Below, in pieces: positions 20,157-60,973 of a DNA stretch of 64,000 bases (position 1 is the first letter of the stretch; each line of letters opens with the position of its first letter). Source of the stretch: Candidatus Thermoplasmatota archaeon (GTDB taxonomy: Archaea > Thermoplasmatota > SW-10-69-26 > JACQPN01 > JAJPHT01). The notes beneath the pieces are model-generated. The model ran no database searches and had not been told where the DNA came from. It worked only from the letters and a program-made list of their open reading frames with translations. The stretch spans positions 1 through 64,000 of the forward strand of contig DATLGO010000102.1 of NCBI GenBank assembly GCA_035540375.1. Reading direction: 5' to 3'. The translations under genes and the position numbers were made by a program.

Positions 20157-20302
20157 GGATCGACAGCCAGGCCGCCTTCCATGAAGGCACCGCCCGTGCG
20201 TCGAGCGCGGAGCCGATCGGGGCCGGCCTGAACGCCGAGGACGGATCCGAGCGGGGCCTGTCGCCGGTTCGGATTCGTTGGGGCGCCATCCCGTTCAACG
20301 GA

Positions 20303-20323
20303 ACGATCCGAGGGTACGGGGCC
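20303..20323. repeat. left copy of a 21-bp direct repeat
   Basis: This 21-bp block, centred on GATCCGAGGGTACGGGG, is repeated exactly at 22527-22547. Downstream bases also resemble each other (a CCCCGTTC/CCCCGTCC end). The two copies bracket a 2.2-kb segment containing a single gene of different base composition. Confidence 0.75.
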
Positions 20324-20421
20324 CTGACCCCGTCCAAGTGCTCGGGTGCTCGGCGACGGCGGCCCATCGAATCCGCATGGCGCGCAATCCACGTTCCGTG
20401 AAAAGGGGGCCGAGCGTGAGG

Positions 20422-22047
20422 TCAGCCGGATTCCGAGGGCAGGCGCGCGACGATGACATAAGGGCCGTCCCAAGATCGATCAAGGTAGGCGACGTTGAGT
20501 TGAGCGACACGTTCCAGTCCGATCGGGCGGCGCCAAGTCGCTTCGCCGTGAACCTCGATACATGACTCAGCGCCGTTCCTGTAGCAGACTCTCGCCGAGG
20601 CGCCCTCTGGCAAGCGGATTTCGATTTCGACTTCGCCTTGGGCACGCGAGGCGATCGAGTACCAATCGGAATAGTCCCCCTCCGACATCACGAGTTCAGC
20701 TTCGCATAGGCCCCCTTCCGGCAACGCGACGAGGTATTGGTTCGGAGCCGCATCGCGCCCGGATCCGCAGTCGCTCTGACCGCGAGGTTCGAAGGCCTCG
20801 ACGCGAAGGGCGTAGGCGCCCGACCCAGGGGCAAATCCCCATATGCTCAGCCGCCACGAGTGGGTTGCGGGCGCCTGGACGGGGAAGGATACACGCTCCC
20901 CCGAGGCGACCGTTGCGCAAGACGAGAGGACGCTCACGACATGAGCGCAGAAATAAACCGCCCCCTTGCCGTGGAATTCGAGATCCAGTCGAAGCGCCCT
21001 CGCCTCCGGGAACTCGAAAATGTCCTTCTCGTCCCCGTTGGCGTAATCGAGTTCACCAGCACACTCGACAAGGGATGACGACAAGACAACGGGTTGCCCG
21101 GACGATGCGTCCCGACCTCCGCCGCAATCGTCGTGCGGCTCGACCGAGCGCACGTCGATGCGATAATCCGTGGAACCGCTCGACGATAACGCCTCGACCA
21201 CCAACACGTAAAGGCGAGGCGCGGAAGCCATCCAGTATCGGCGGCCCGAGTCCGAATACTCATTGAAACACTCGACAGCAAACTGGGTCACATAGTCGAA
21301 AAGGCACGCTCGGACCACGGATCCGGGGCCCTTCGACAACGTGATTGTGACGGCTTCGCCCTCGGCGAAGTCGATCGCCAAGACATCGATCGGGTCGAAG
21401 GTATGATGAATTCCCCCGAGGCAGGAAGAAATGGTCGAGATGGGGGTTGCCGACGAGGCGTTTCGCCGGTCGCCGCCCGCATCACGTCCGGTGCCACAAT
21501 CATTCTCCGTGGGTACCATCGTGACCGTCAGCTCGAATCCATATCGTTTCCACGCGTTTTCATCGGTTGCGAGAATCGCCAGGCTCCAGTCCCCCGCCGC
21601 TTCGGCCGTCCACCGGATTCTACTCGACCCGCAACCGACCTTCGAACCGTCGGGCCGGTGGAGGCAGAACGAGGACGACGACGTCAAACCGGCCGTCCTC
21701 TCGACGAGCACGACCTCCCCCTCACGGACCGCCATTCGGTAGTAATCGGCGGAATCGCGAAGACCGAAATCGCCGACGCAGGCCGCAGGCGCCGCGATTC
21801 CGCGAGCCGCCGACTGCGAATCGCCCGCGTCGCCGAGGCCACCGCAATCCGCCTGGACGATGCCGAGGCCCACTGCCCCAATGTCCGGCAACGCAGGTGG
21901 GGCAACGCCCGCGGTGACGCCGGTGCCCGACCCTGAGCCCGGGGCTCCATCCCACGTGACAAGGCCGCGAACGTCGCCCGCTGGAAAGGCAGCGACGGAC
22001 CCTGTGCTGAGAAGGAATATCACCAGGACGGCCACACCGAGGCGCAT
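20422..22047 (-). CDS. exported protein with four Cys-containing PPC-like repeats
   Basis: A 541-residue protein with a signal peptide and four repeats, each opened by a cysteine motif: ADCGGLGDA, NDCGTGRDA, DDCGGGRDA and SDCGSGRDA. Each repeat ends in a beta-rich stretch containing a second cysteine (for example ACVGDFGLRDSADYYRM and LVECAGELDYANGDEKDIFEF), the pattern of bacterial pre-peptidase C-terminal (PPC) domains. No enzyme domain is attached. I chose the ATG at 22047, 24 nt from a TATA-like box; longer starts lack a signal peptide at the N-terminus. Codons are visibly less GC-biased than in the neighbours. Confidence 0.8.
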   Translation of the reverse strand: MRLGVAVLVIFLLSTGSVAAFPAGDVRGLVTWDGAPGSGSGTGVTAGVAPPALPDIGAVGLGIVQADCGGLGDAGDSQSAARGIAAPAACVGDFGLRDSADYYRMAVREGEVVLVERTAGLTSSSSFCLHRPDGSKVGCGSSRIRWTAEAAGDWSLAILATDENAWKRYGFELTVTMVPTENDCGTGRDAGGDRRNASSATPISTISSCLGGIHHTFDPIDVLAIDFAEGEAVTITLSKGPGSVVRACLFDYVTQFAVECFNEYSDSGRRYWMASAPRLYVLVVEALSSSGSTDYRIDVRSVEPHDDCGGGRDASSGQPVVLSSSLVECAGELDYANGDEKDIFEFPEARALRLDLEFHGKGAVYFCAHVVSVLSSCATVASGERVSFPVQAPATHSWRLSIWGFAPGSGAYALRVEAFEPRGQSDCGSGRDAAPNQYLVALPEGGLCEAELVMSEGDYSDWYSIASRAQGEVEIEIRLPEGASARVCYRNGAESCIEVHGEATWRRPIGLERVAQLNVAYLDRSWDGPYVIVARLPSESG

Positions 22048-22070
22048 GGCCTTGGCATGACATGGGAGAT

Positions 22071-22078
22071 TTATCAAA
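22071..22078 (-). promoter_or_regulatory. TATA-like box for the PPC-repeat protein
   Basis: On the minus strand it reads TTTGATAAATC, AT-rich within GC-rich DNA, 24 nt upstream of the ATG at 22047. This spacing supports leaderless initiation there. Confidence 0.6.
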
Positions 22079-22366
22079 GTTACGCTTGACATCTCATAAC
22101 CACGAGCCCATCCCCAAGAGGCGCATTGAGAAATCAACCACGCCACGCGCGAACCCCTCGACACAGGACGTGGCAAGCGTCCCGCGTTTCGACTCCGCCC
22201 GCATGAGTCGGGGGAGGGGGGCTTGCCTCACTCAGATGACGCGCGATATCGCGGCGCCGCGCGGGAGATGCCCGGATGGGCCCCGCATCGCACGCATCGC
22301 TGCTGCAGCGGCGGGGCTTCGCACGCCTCGATCACGCATCGCAGCCGTTGCAGGATCTCACGTTCC
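22079..22366. other. non-coding spacer upstream of the tRNA-derived repeats
   Basis: About 290 bp in which I see no gene or RNA. It holds alternating purine-rich and GC-rich stretches, including a GGGGGAGGGGGG run near 22210. Confidence 0.4.
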
Positions 22367-22624
22367 GGGGCCTCAGCCCCGTTCGGATTTCGCACGAAGG
22401 CGCACCGCCTTCGCGCGCATCCGCGCCGTAACGCGTGCATTTGCACGATCCGAGGGTACGGCCTCAGCCCCGTTCGCACGAAGGCGCACCGCCCACGCGC
22501 ATATCCGGCGCATCGCGTGCAATTGCACGATCCGAGGGTACGGGGCCTCAGCCCCGTTCGGATTCCGCACGAAGGCGCTGCGGCGCCTTCGTGCTCATCC
22601 GAACGGGTCTATCGACTCCGTCGA
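22367..22624. repeat. degenerate repeats derived from the tRNA-Gln 3' end
   Basis: Three imperfect copies (beginning near 22367, 22447 and 22529) share CCTCAGCCCCGTTCG followed by GCACGAAGGCGC. The AGCCCCGTTCGGA part matches the 3' end of the tRNA-Gln gene next door. Two copies are preceded by GATCCGAGGGTACGG, the core of the 21-bp direct repeat. The third copy continues into a perfect 12-bp hairpin, GCACGAAGGCGC with a TGCG loop (22567-22594). A shorter hairpin with stem CTATCGA and loop CTCCG adjoins the tRNA. Confidence 0.75.
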
Positions 22625-22697
22625 TAGCCCCGTTCGGATTCGAACCGAAGTCGCAGGATCCAAAGTCCCGCATGATTGGCCACTACACTACGGGGCT
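22625..22697 (-). tRNA. tRNA-Gln (anticodon TTG)
   Basis: The minus strand folds into a complete cloverleaf: acceptor AGCCCCG/CGGGGCT, D-arm with GTAGTGGCCAATC, anticodon loop CTTTGGA (TTG reads CAA), and T-arm GGTTCGAATC. The discriminator is A. No intron and no encoded CCA are seen. Its 3' end is the source of the repeat fragments that follow it. Confidence 0.96.
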
Positions 22698-59793: not shown

Positions 59794-59815
59794 GCACGCC
59801 CTGGCCGGAGGCGTG

Positions 59816-60090
59816 CGCGGCGGGGGCTCCTCGGGTGTCCTGCCGGAGTCGATCGTGCTTGCCTGACGTCCGGCCGCTCGCGCGCGGCGGGGATCCTCCG
59901 CGCGTCCGGCCGGAGCCGATCGTGCTTGCCTGACGTCCGGCCGCTCCGGCGCGGCGGGGATCCCCTAACCCCGCCGCGCCTGCGCGGGTGAGGCTCCGCT
60001 CCGGGTTGAATGGAGACCTGCCGAAAATCTTGGACTCGGGGTGCGGAGACGAGAGGGGGAAAGCCTTTCCCCCTCTCGTGCTCACCCCCT
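59816..60090. repeat. composite repeat element A
   Basis: It has three parts: about 2.3 tandem copies of a 67-bp unit (CGATCGTGCTTGCCTGACGT in each, 59851 and 59918), the block GGGGATCCCCTAACCCCGC (about 59956-59974) and, after about 75 bp, a hairpin with stem ACGAGAGGGGG (60049-60079) and the flank GTGCTCACCCCC. The same order of parts, with different unit sequence and length, forms element B beyond tRNA-Pro. No coding content is supported. Confidence 0.8.
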
Positions 60091-60095
60091 TTCTA

Positions 60096-60109
60096 TGGGG
60101 CCGTCCAGA
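60096..60109. repeat. copy of the tRNA-Pro 3' end
   Basis: TGGGGCCGTCCAGA, 14 bp identical to the 3' end of the tRNA-Pro gene (60165-60178), 69 bp downstream of it in tRNA direction. It resembles one arm of an attachment site. Confidence 0.6.
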
Positions 60110-60164
60110 CCGCAGCCGGCCTCAGCCGGCGAGGACCAGGACGGGCCCACGAAGCGAAGCGAAG

Positions 60165-60237
60165 TGGGGCCGTCCAGATTTGAACTGGAGTCAACTGCAC
60201 CCCAAGCAGCAAGGATACCAAGCTACCCCACGGCCCC
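60165..60237 (-). tRNA. tRNA-Pro (anticodon GGG)
   Basis: The minus strand forms a full cloverleaf: acceptor GGGGCCG/CGGCCCC, D-arm with GGGTAGCTTGGTATCC, anticodon stem GCTGC/GCAGT with loop TTGGGGT (GGG reads CCC), and T-arm with AGTTCAAATC. The discriminator is A. No intron or encoded CCA. It sits between composite elements A and B. Confidence 0.95.
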
Positions 60238-60355: not shown

Positions 60356-60781
60356 AGCGCCGCGGGATCCCGCGCGCTTACCGGCCGAGAACCGAGGGTG
60401 CGCTGCTGACGTTGGTCTCGCTCCGCGCCGCGGGGATCCGTCGCGCTCATCGGCCGAGAATTGAGGGTGCGCTGCTGACGTTGGGCTCGCTCCGCGCTGC
60501 GGGGATCCTGCGCGCTCATAGGCCGAGAACCGATCTTACACTGCTGACGTTGGGCTCGCTCCGCGCCGCGGGGATCCTGCGCGCTCATCAGCCGAGAAGC
60601 GATCGTGCGCTGCTGACGTTGGGCTCGCTTCGCGCCGCGGGGATCCCCTAACCCCGCGGCGCTGCGCGAGGTCGAAGCTCCGCTGACGTGTGTTTGGAGA
60701 ATGGAAAAGTAGATTGGGTCCGATTGGGCAGAGACGAGAGGGGGGAGGTTTCGTCCTCCCCCCTCTCGTGCTCACCCCCCT
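60356..60781. repeat. composite repeat element B
   Basis: About four tandem copies of a 69-bp unit (each with CTGCTGACGTTGG and GCCGAGAA; copies at 60384, 60453, 60522 and 60591), then GGGGATCCCCTAACCCCGC (from about 60640), about 80 bp of unique DNA, and a 15-bp hairpin (60734-60748/60755-60769) followed by GCTCACCCCCC. The hairpin ends 13 bp after the rpoN stop and probably also terminates the ribosomal-protein operon. The 69-bp unit is divisible by three, so open frames run through it, with repetitive translations I do not call genes. Confidence 0.85.
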
Positions 60782-60973
60782 TCAGGCGTAAGGCGCCGCG
60801 TCGTCGACGATGTCCGACTGGGACACGATCATCCGACGGCAGCAATACCGCGAGACGCCGAGGTCGTCCATGACGCGCTTCGGCTCCTCGCCGCGCGCGA
60901 CGCGTTCCTTGAACGCCTCGTACGCGGAGCCGATGACTTTTCCGCAGCTGAAGCAGCGCACGGGAATCATCAT
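60782..60973 (-). CDS. rpoN: DNA-directed RNA polymerase subunit N
   Basis: The 63-residue RpoN/Rpb10 subunit, standard size. MMIPVRCFSCGKVIG holds the first CxxC, and SRYCCRRM the second zinc cysteine pair. It is the last gene of the eL18-uL13-uS9-RpoN operon, a well-known archaeal arrangement. Starting ATGATG; the operon neighbour uS9 ends 7 bp upstream. Confidence 0.97.
   Translation of the reverse strand: MMIPVRCFSCGKVIGSAYEAFKERVARGEEPKRVMDDLGVSRYCCRRMIVSQSDIVDDAAPYA

Follow-up and report, generated by a model that had tools for sequence, protein, structure and literature searches.

A tandem hairpin array, probably derived from the 3' end of tRNA-Gln, apparently encloses an atypical archaeal gene

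The stretch of DNA analysed here, 64,000 nucleotides from a Candidatus Thermoplasmatota archaeon and called the window below, contains an atypical gene that lies beside an intact tRNA-Gln gene and between two exact copies of a 21-bp repeat. The question that this locus raises is where the repeats come from. A first reading of the sequence had taken them as scars of repeated integrase-mediated integration at the tRNA, with the gene as cargo. The anatomy of the locus, and of the surroundings of other tRNA genes in this genome and in relatives, bears on that history and points, in our reading, to a different one.

Anatomy of the tRNA-Gln locus

The 21-bp repeat was found exactly, at 20303-20323 and 22527-22547, where the sequence-only reading had placed it, and the copies of the tRNA-Gln 3' end that it had noted between the gene and the tRNA are present as well (16, 15 and 11 nt). 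On the tRNA strand the 21-mer reads GGCCCCGTACCCTCGGATCGT, and the tRNA-Gln gene ends in ATCCGAACGGGGCT, the reverse complement of which is AGCCCCGTTCGGAT. Set against this reverse complement, the 21-mer is composed of GGCCCCGT-ACCC-TCGGAT, and it is therefore an antisense tRNA-Gln 3' end carrying a 4-nt ACCC insertion. A third copy of its 15-bp core lies at 22447-22461, so that the window has three, where 0.25 would be expected from shuffling. When up to two mismatches were allowed, the core matched five times in the 3.13-Mb genome; three of these near-matches lie at the tRNA-Gln locus.

These repeats form part of an array of tandem palindromic units of ~75-90 bp. Outward from the tRNA, a unit begins with the tRNA 3' end in antisense (A3) and closes with that end in sense (S3), and one or two adjacent hairpins lie between them in each of these short non-coding units. 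The features of the locus are as follows:

22625..22697, minus strand: intact tRNA-Gln (TTG), the source of the copied 3' end (S3, GAATCCGAACGGGGCT); ARAGORN, and Rfam RF00005 at 59.3 bits
22597..22639, minus strand: inverted repeat in which the tRNA 3' end and the first trailer bases pair with A3; 19-bp stem with 1 mismatch, loop included; hairpin scan and repeat search
22550..22624, minus strand: array unit 1, made up of the trailer, A3, a 12-bp perfect hairpin (22567-22594) and an S3 copy (22550-22565, 16 nt exact)
22466..22549, minus strand: array unit 2, made up of A3 with the 4-nt insertion (contains the 21-bp repeat 22527-22547), small hairpins and a partial S3 (22466-22476, 11 nt)
22375..22465, minus strand: array unit 3, made up of A3 with the insertion of unit 2 (core 22447-22461), a hairpin (22391-22417) and S3 (22375-22389, 15 nt exact)
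22348..22374, minus strand: degenerate fourth unit, start only (A3-like); repeat search, 56 nt at 88% to unit 1/2
20422..22047, minus strand: atypical gene; its 541-aa product has a signal-like N-terminus and Cys-containing segments that recur along it
20354..20435, minus strand: possible degenerate unit, weak, across the stop codon of the gene (CGGAATCC..GGCTGA); alignment score 31 (shuffle maximum 30)
20282..20333, minus strand: degenerate unit with the far 21-bp repeat (20303-20323), made up of ACGGGG, A3, a hairpin remnant and GCGCC; alignment score 55 (shuffle maximum 30)
20244..20276, minus strand: second degenerate unit, made up of S3 (GAATCCGAAC) and A3 (AGGCCCCG..CTCGGATC); alignment score 33 (shuffle maximum 30)

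The antisense match of A3 within the inverted repeat at 22597..22639 had p<0.005 against shuffles, and units 2 and 3 form a tandem repeat of 84 bp that TRF reported (22389-22560; 87% matches, score 265). Within the genome the array sequence is unique to its own locus, with only local copies scoring well; the best match outside the array was the degenerate unit at 20282..20333 (46.4 bits). Exact S3 copies are restricted to the tRNA side of the gene, and the units beyond the gene are degenerate. Alignment against shuffles revealed no unit between the array and the start of the gene, and the degenerate units on the far side, two of them clear and perhaps a third, suggest that the gene lies within the array. 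A hairpin array built from the tRNA end, with an atypical gene inside it, is the description that fits the locus best.

That the gene is less GC-rich than its neighbours, as had been noted at the outset, is borne out by a GC content of 63.7% and a GC3 of 72%, compared with a GC3 of 88-97% in the neighbours. Its codon-usage distance, a check that the first reading had proposed, was 0.226 and ranked first among window genes of at least 200 aa, in a gene set that was picked by codon-position GC and took the longer frame, extended to 22176. Homologues of the 541-aa protein were weak and distant and occurred in 9 of 60 relatives; searches of Pfam, NCBIfam and PDB gave no match, and a single-sequence structure prediction was too poor for use (pLDDT 38.5). 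In the nearest genome, which belongs only to the same family, a homologue of the exported gene was not found, a homologue of the flanking gene lacked a tRNA-Gln in its 1.5-kb upstream stretch, and the locus was not syntenic. For the flanking flavoprotein, all homologues that a scan of genome contigs gave were bacterial. Because the composition of the gene looks foreign and the gene lies between tRNA-Gln-derived repeats, it probably entered the array or was overgrown by it: it may have been inserted between units, or it may have separated units that were once contiguous. Elsewhere in the window, the gene at 33796-34938 had the second most atypical codon usage among the larger genes (GC3 0.76) and no Pfam match, and a 15-bp perfect hairpin lies at 35577-35610.

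Recurrence beside other tRNA genes

An insertion of like kind is found at a second tRNA in the window:

60164..60237, minus strand: tRNA-Pro (GGG); ARAGORN
60096..60150, minus strand: unit at tRNA-Pro, made up of A3 (60139-60150), a hairpin and an S3 copy TCTGGACGGCCCCA (60096-60109, 14 nt exact)

The order sense-antisense-sense is present at both tRNA-Gln and tRNA-Pro. Two related tandem arrays also flank tRNA-Pro, one on each side (59815-59963 and 60357-60646, with 67- and 69-bp units); apart from the tRNA-Gln array, these are the only repeats in the window with a TRF score above 200. Next to each is a hairpin around GGGGATCCCCTAACCCC, along with another hairpin that is G-rich (60049-60079 and 60734-60769). 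The motif AAGGGGGTGAGCACGAGAGGGGG with its hairpin (60049-60095 and 60734-60785) occurs after a protein gene and after the tRNA-Pro copy, and G-rich trailers that resemble this combination follow other tRNAs too (L025, L042 and L047); the combination is possibly a common terminator-like element.

To quantify recurrence, the last 15 nt of each tRNA, with the final base left off, were searched for nearby with up to two mismatches; the 15-nt bait sets a lower limit on copy length, and shorter copies escape it. Among the 42 tRNA genes of the assembly, six had copies of their 3' end within 700 nt downstream and none had such copies upstream, whereas 5'-end copies lay upstream of three and downstream of none. 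The ends of other tRNAs, used as a control in this genome, matched in 0.7% and 0.2% of pairs. Cargo-free units lie 48-181 nt downstream of five other tRNAs in the window's genome, and they also adjoin tRNAs in five further sampled genomes of the phylum. In these relatives, whose sampled tRNAs are the best-scoring ones and not complete sets, downstream 3'-end copies accompanied 3 of 28 tRNAs in G001, 14 of 30 in G002, 3 of 23 in G003, 9 of 28 in G005 and 5 of 30 in G010, compared with 0.7-2.2% for the ends of other tRNAs across genomes; the lower-GC genome G019 had none at 29 tRNAs. Upstream 5'-end copies numbered two in G002, two in G003, four in G005, one in G010 and zero in G001 and G019. 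No tRNA in the genomes sampled had copies of its own 3' end upstream, and 5'-end copies were confined to that side.

Units occur on both sides of tRNAs, and the 50-340 nt between a tRNA and its copy hold hairpins and antisense tRNA sequence, without genes; an antisense copy lay in this interval in 26 of 52 cases at p<=0.01. S3 copies mostly span the last 13-20 nt of the tRNA (peak 17), and copies of the 5' end (S5) mostly span the first 22-25 nt, which places the breakpoints in the T-loop and the D-loop, respectively. Many copies terminate within one base of the mature tRNA end. The copy-bearing isoacceptors were common to genomes no more often than expected by chance (18 observed versus 16 expected, p=0.30). 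The initiator-type tRNA and the gene order suggest that the window's genome is archaeal. All of the genomes are drafts, probably metagenome-assembled, in which tRNA-adjacent repeats could be collapsed or misassembled, but the units differ in sequence, which argues against simple assembly artefacts. A phylum-wide T-arm palindrome pattern that matched 18 of 243 genomes, with 0 control matches, was discarded, as many of its matches resemble convergent tRNA pairs.

These data bear directly on site-specific integration, according to which tyrosine-recombinase elements integrated repeatedly at tRNA-Gln and left degenerate att copies, with the exported-protein gene as the last cargo or, in a variant, with miniature elements mobilised in trans. 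In its favour, S3 starts in the T-loop and S5 ends in the D-loop, which are described archaeal integrase sites (PMC8371274), and breakpoints this precise would also fit tyrosine recombinases, known for cutting near tRNA loops. The atypical gene appears bracketed by units, and it is well established that integrated elements give rise to partial tRNAs, as at Gln-TTG in Pyrococcus yayanosii (PMC9897764). Integrase genes adjoin tRNAs in relatives, for example G002, G003, G005 and G006, and PF00589 (tyrosine recombinase) had matches in five of seven genomes, some of them adjoining tRNAs. In the window's genome, however, which is 97% complete, PF00589 had no match, in agreement with the initial remark that no integrase is left. 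In a search of 36 tRNAs that reached 12 kb downstream, or less near contig ends, no distant exact 3'-end copy was left unexplained by a neighbouring tRNA; the sole distant match, GGGGTTCGAATCCCC at +3989 downstream of tRNA-Arg(CCT), is the neighbouring tRNA-Arg(TCG). The gene-free intervals and the presence of units on both sides of one tRNA also count against integration, and each unit matches its own tRNA, so that every tRNA would need its own element. An integrase or casposase for the units is not at hand, and it is possible that the elements were lost or that their proteins are too divergent for the models. With cargo-free units at other tRNAs and on both sides, and with hairpins and antisense copies for which an att site has no need, we consider it unlikely that the repeats are scars of repeated integration. 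What survives of the first reading is a foreign-looking gene between tRNA-Gln-derived repeats; a cargo gene between integration scars finds little support.

DNA-level or RNA-level origin of the units

Stems of at least 12 bp were enriched downstream of tRNAs (65 versus 12 in shuffled sequence), and the enrichment near tRNAs amounted to 27 versus 9 in the window's genome and 56 versus 2 in G005. If the stems acted in a transcribed RNA under selection, G.U should be favoured on that strand. In stems of 10 bp or longer, the counts of G.T and A.C mismatches were 29 versus 22 downstream and 24 versus 38 upstream of tRNAs, without a strand-specific excess of G.U over A.C, in a test that is diluted by chance stems. 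That the two kinds of mismatch are equally frequent argues against a function of the RNA strand and is expected for pairing at the DNA level.

In G005, the tRNA-Arg (TCG) at L201 carries three tandem units with identical or near-identical arms, the hairpins of which differ yet stay paired. A hairpin module of the same genome, GACGGATCnnnGATCCGTCCTC, gave 44 pattern matches on both strands compared with 1 in the control; because the motif is nearly palindromic, many sites were matched twice, once per strand, and the sites themselves number about half of 44. This module (L276-L305) is found to either side of tRNAs, in mirrored orientation, and further copies of it have no tRNA within 900 nt; G005 is the one genome in which dispersed hairpin modules were demonstrated. 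The lack of wobble bias, the constant arms with varying but paired hairpins and the dispersed, mirrored module together favour a DNA-level process. Four of the sites away from tRNAs (L276, L286, L287 and L288) have long flanks in common and the look of a repeated element, and L201 would be a good locus in which to study hairpin change.

An RNA-level explanation would hold that the units act as structured RNAs in tRNA leaders or trailers, folding against the tRNA ends or competing with them and thereby controlling processing or termination. The units are predicted to fold stably, with arms that are complementary to the tRNA end, which fits this explanation, as do the tandem units whose hairpins differ in sequence and are still paired. 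We nevertheless regard it as very unlikely, given the lack of a G.U excess, the mirrored placement of the G005 module on both sides of tRNAs and away from them, the absence of Rfam matches for the units (at the tRNA-Gln locus, the tRNA itself was the only match) and affected tRNAs that are not common to genomes above chance.

A further explanation takes the units for miniature mobile hairpin elements, similar to GC clusters and to the double-hairpin elements of mitochondria, that insert at tRNA ends with a target duplication of ~15-17 nt (3') or 23 nt (5'). The dispersed module in G005 would be accounted for in this way, as would insertion points in the D-, variable- or T-loops of partial tRNA copies and the tRNA-Pro, which is parted by a 14-bp exact duplication from a stretch resembling those after other genes. 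The hairpins of the window's genome are locus-specific, however, and dispersed copies were not found there; moreover, simple insertion would not give antisense copies of the target, and no transposase or casposase candidate was found, which makes this explanation quite unlikely. A casposase origin was not supported, as the sole Cas1 match of the genome adjoins CRISPR-type genes and repeat-like reading frames. Elsewhere in the genome, at L212 (G000:C75), CRISPR-like repeat frames lie with Cas1-like and other Cas-like genes, which appear type I-E-like by eye from their translations.

The reading that we favour, and consider probable on balance, is that the array consists of tandem palindromic units from the 3' end of the adjacent tRNA-Gln, that it is one case of an architecture seen at many tRNA genes of the sampled genomes and that its origin lies at the DNA level. 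Fast-turnover, DNA-level copying of tRNA ends is the best reading of the anatomy, the recurrence, the sidedness, the clustered breakpoints, the unshared set of affected tRNAs and the lack of RNA-strand wobble bias, and we infer a replication or repair mechanism behind the units. In such a mechanism, a break or polymerase switch in the T-loop (3' side) or the D-loop (5' side) of the tRNA gene, which may fold as single-stranded DNA, would duplicate the tRNA end in inverted form on a micro scale; along the way, modules able to form hairpins would be inserted or homogenised, and the units would then multiply through tandem duplication. We propose that the survival of outward copies alone keeps the tRNA intact. 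A significant antisense partner is missing for about half of the copies, which counts against the inverted-duplication reading, and neither intermediates nor strain-level polymorphism were seen. A bolder version, which we put forward only tentatively and regard as rather doubtful, is that an active DNA-level process in some archaeal lineages, possibly a gene-less minimal hairpin mobile element, repeatedly copies both tRNA ends outward as sense and antisense palindromes with fixed T- and D-loop breakpoints and is able to enclose foreign genes.

Partial tRNA copies beside tRNA genes are routinely taken as integration scars, whereas here they number in the dozens, with fixed breakpoints and mirrored sidedness and without integrases or islands. 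If this holds, tRNA genes would have a separate way of seeding repeats; it would yield false att sites for island finders and may feed raw material to split or permuted tRNAs.

Comparison with known systems

No published description of this architecture was found in a search that covered few subscription journals. None of the known systems that we found combines the whole set, namely copies of a tRNA's own ends, in sense and antisense, on both sides, with fixed loop breakpoints and at many tRNAs. The target-site duplications of casposons are ~14-15 bp long. With casposons and Cas1 integration at tRNA 3' ends (PMC4046053), the likeness lies in the duplication of ~15 nt of the tRNA 3' end, whereas here no casposase was found in the genome, both tRNA ends are affected and the inserts contain antisense tRNA sequence. 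Partial tRNA-gene fragments left by integrated elements as attL and attR (PMC9897764, PMC8371274), and those of the Caldiarchaeum tRNA-Thr (PMC3293823), are also partial copies of a tRNA end beside an intact gene, with breakpoints near tRNA loops. The copies described here differ in being tandem, 48-340 nt away, accompanied by antisense copies and hairpins, present on both sides, usually cargo-free and, at this locus, in a genome without a detectable tyrosine recombinase.

Mitochondrial repetitive or double-hairpin elements, such as the sponge RHE and the Allomyces DHE (PMC2800124), are similarly very short, contain one or two hairpins, occur in tandem and turn over fast, and G005 has dispersed modules as well. 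The units reported here, by contrast, are embedded in sense and antisense copies of tRNA ends, belong to a prokaryote and are locus-specific in the window's genome. Inverted triplication by ODIRA (PMC4689423) and template switching at inverted repeats (PMC8604942) share with the array the order sense-antisense-sense and the homogenised arms of inverted repeats; the palindromes described there are kilobase-scale or single events, whereas those beside archaeal tRNA genes are tens of bases long, recurrent and focused on tRNA ends.
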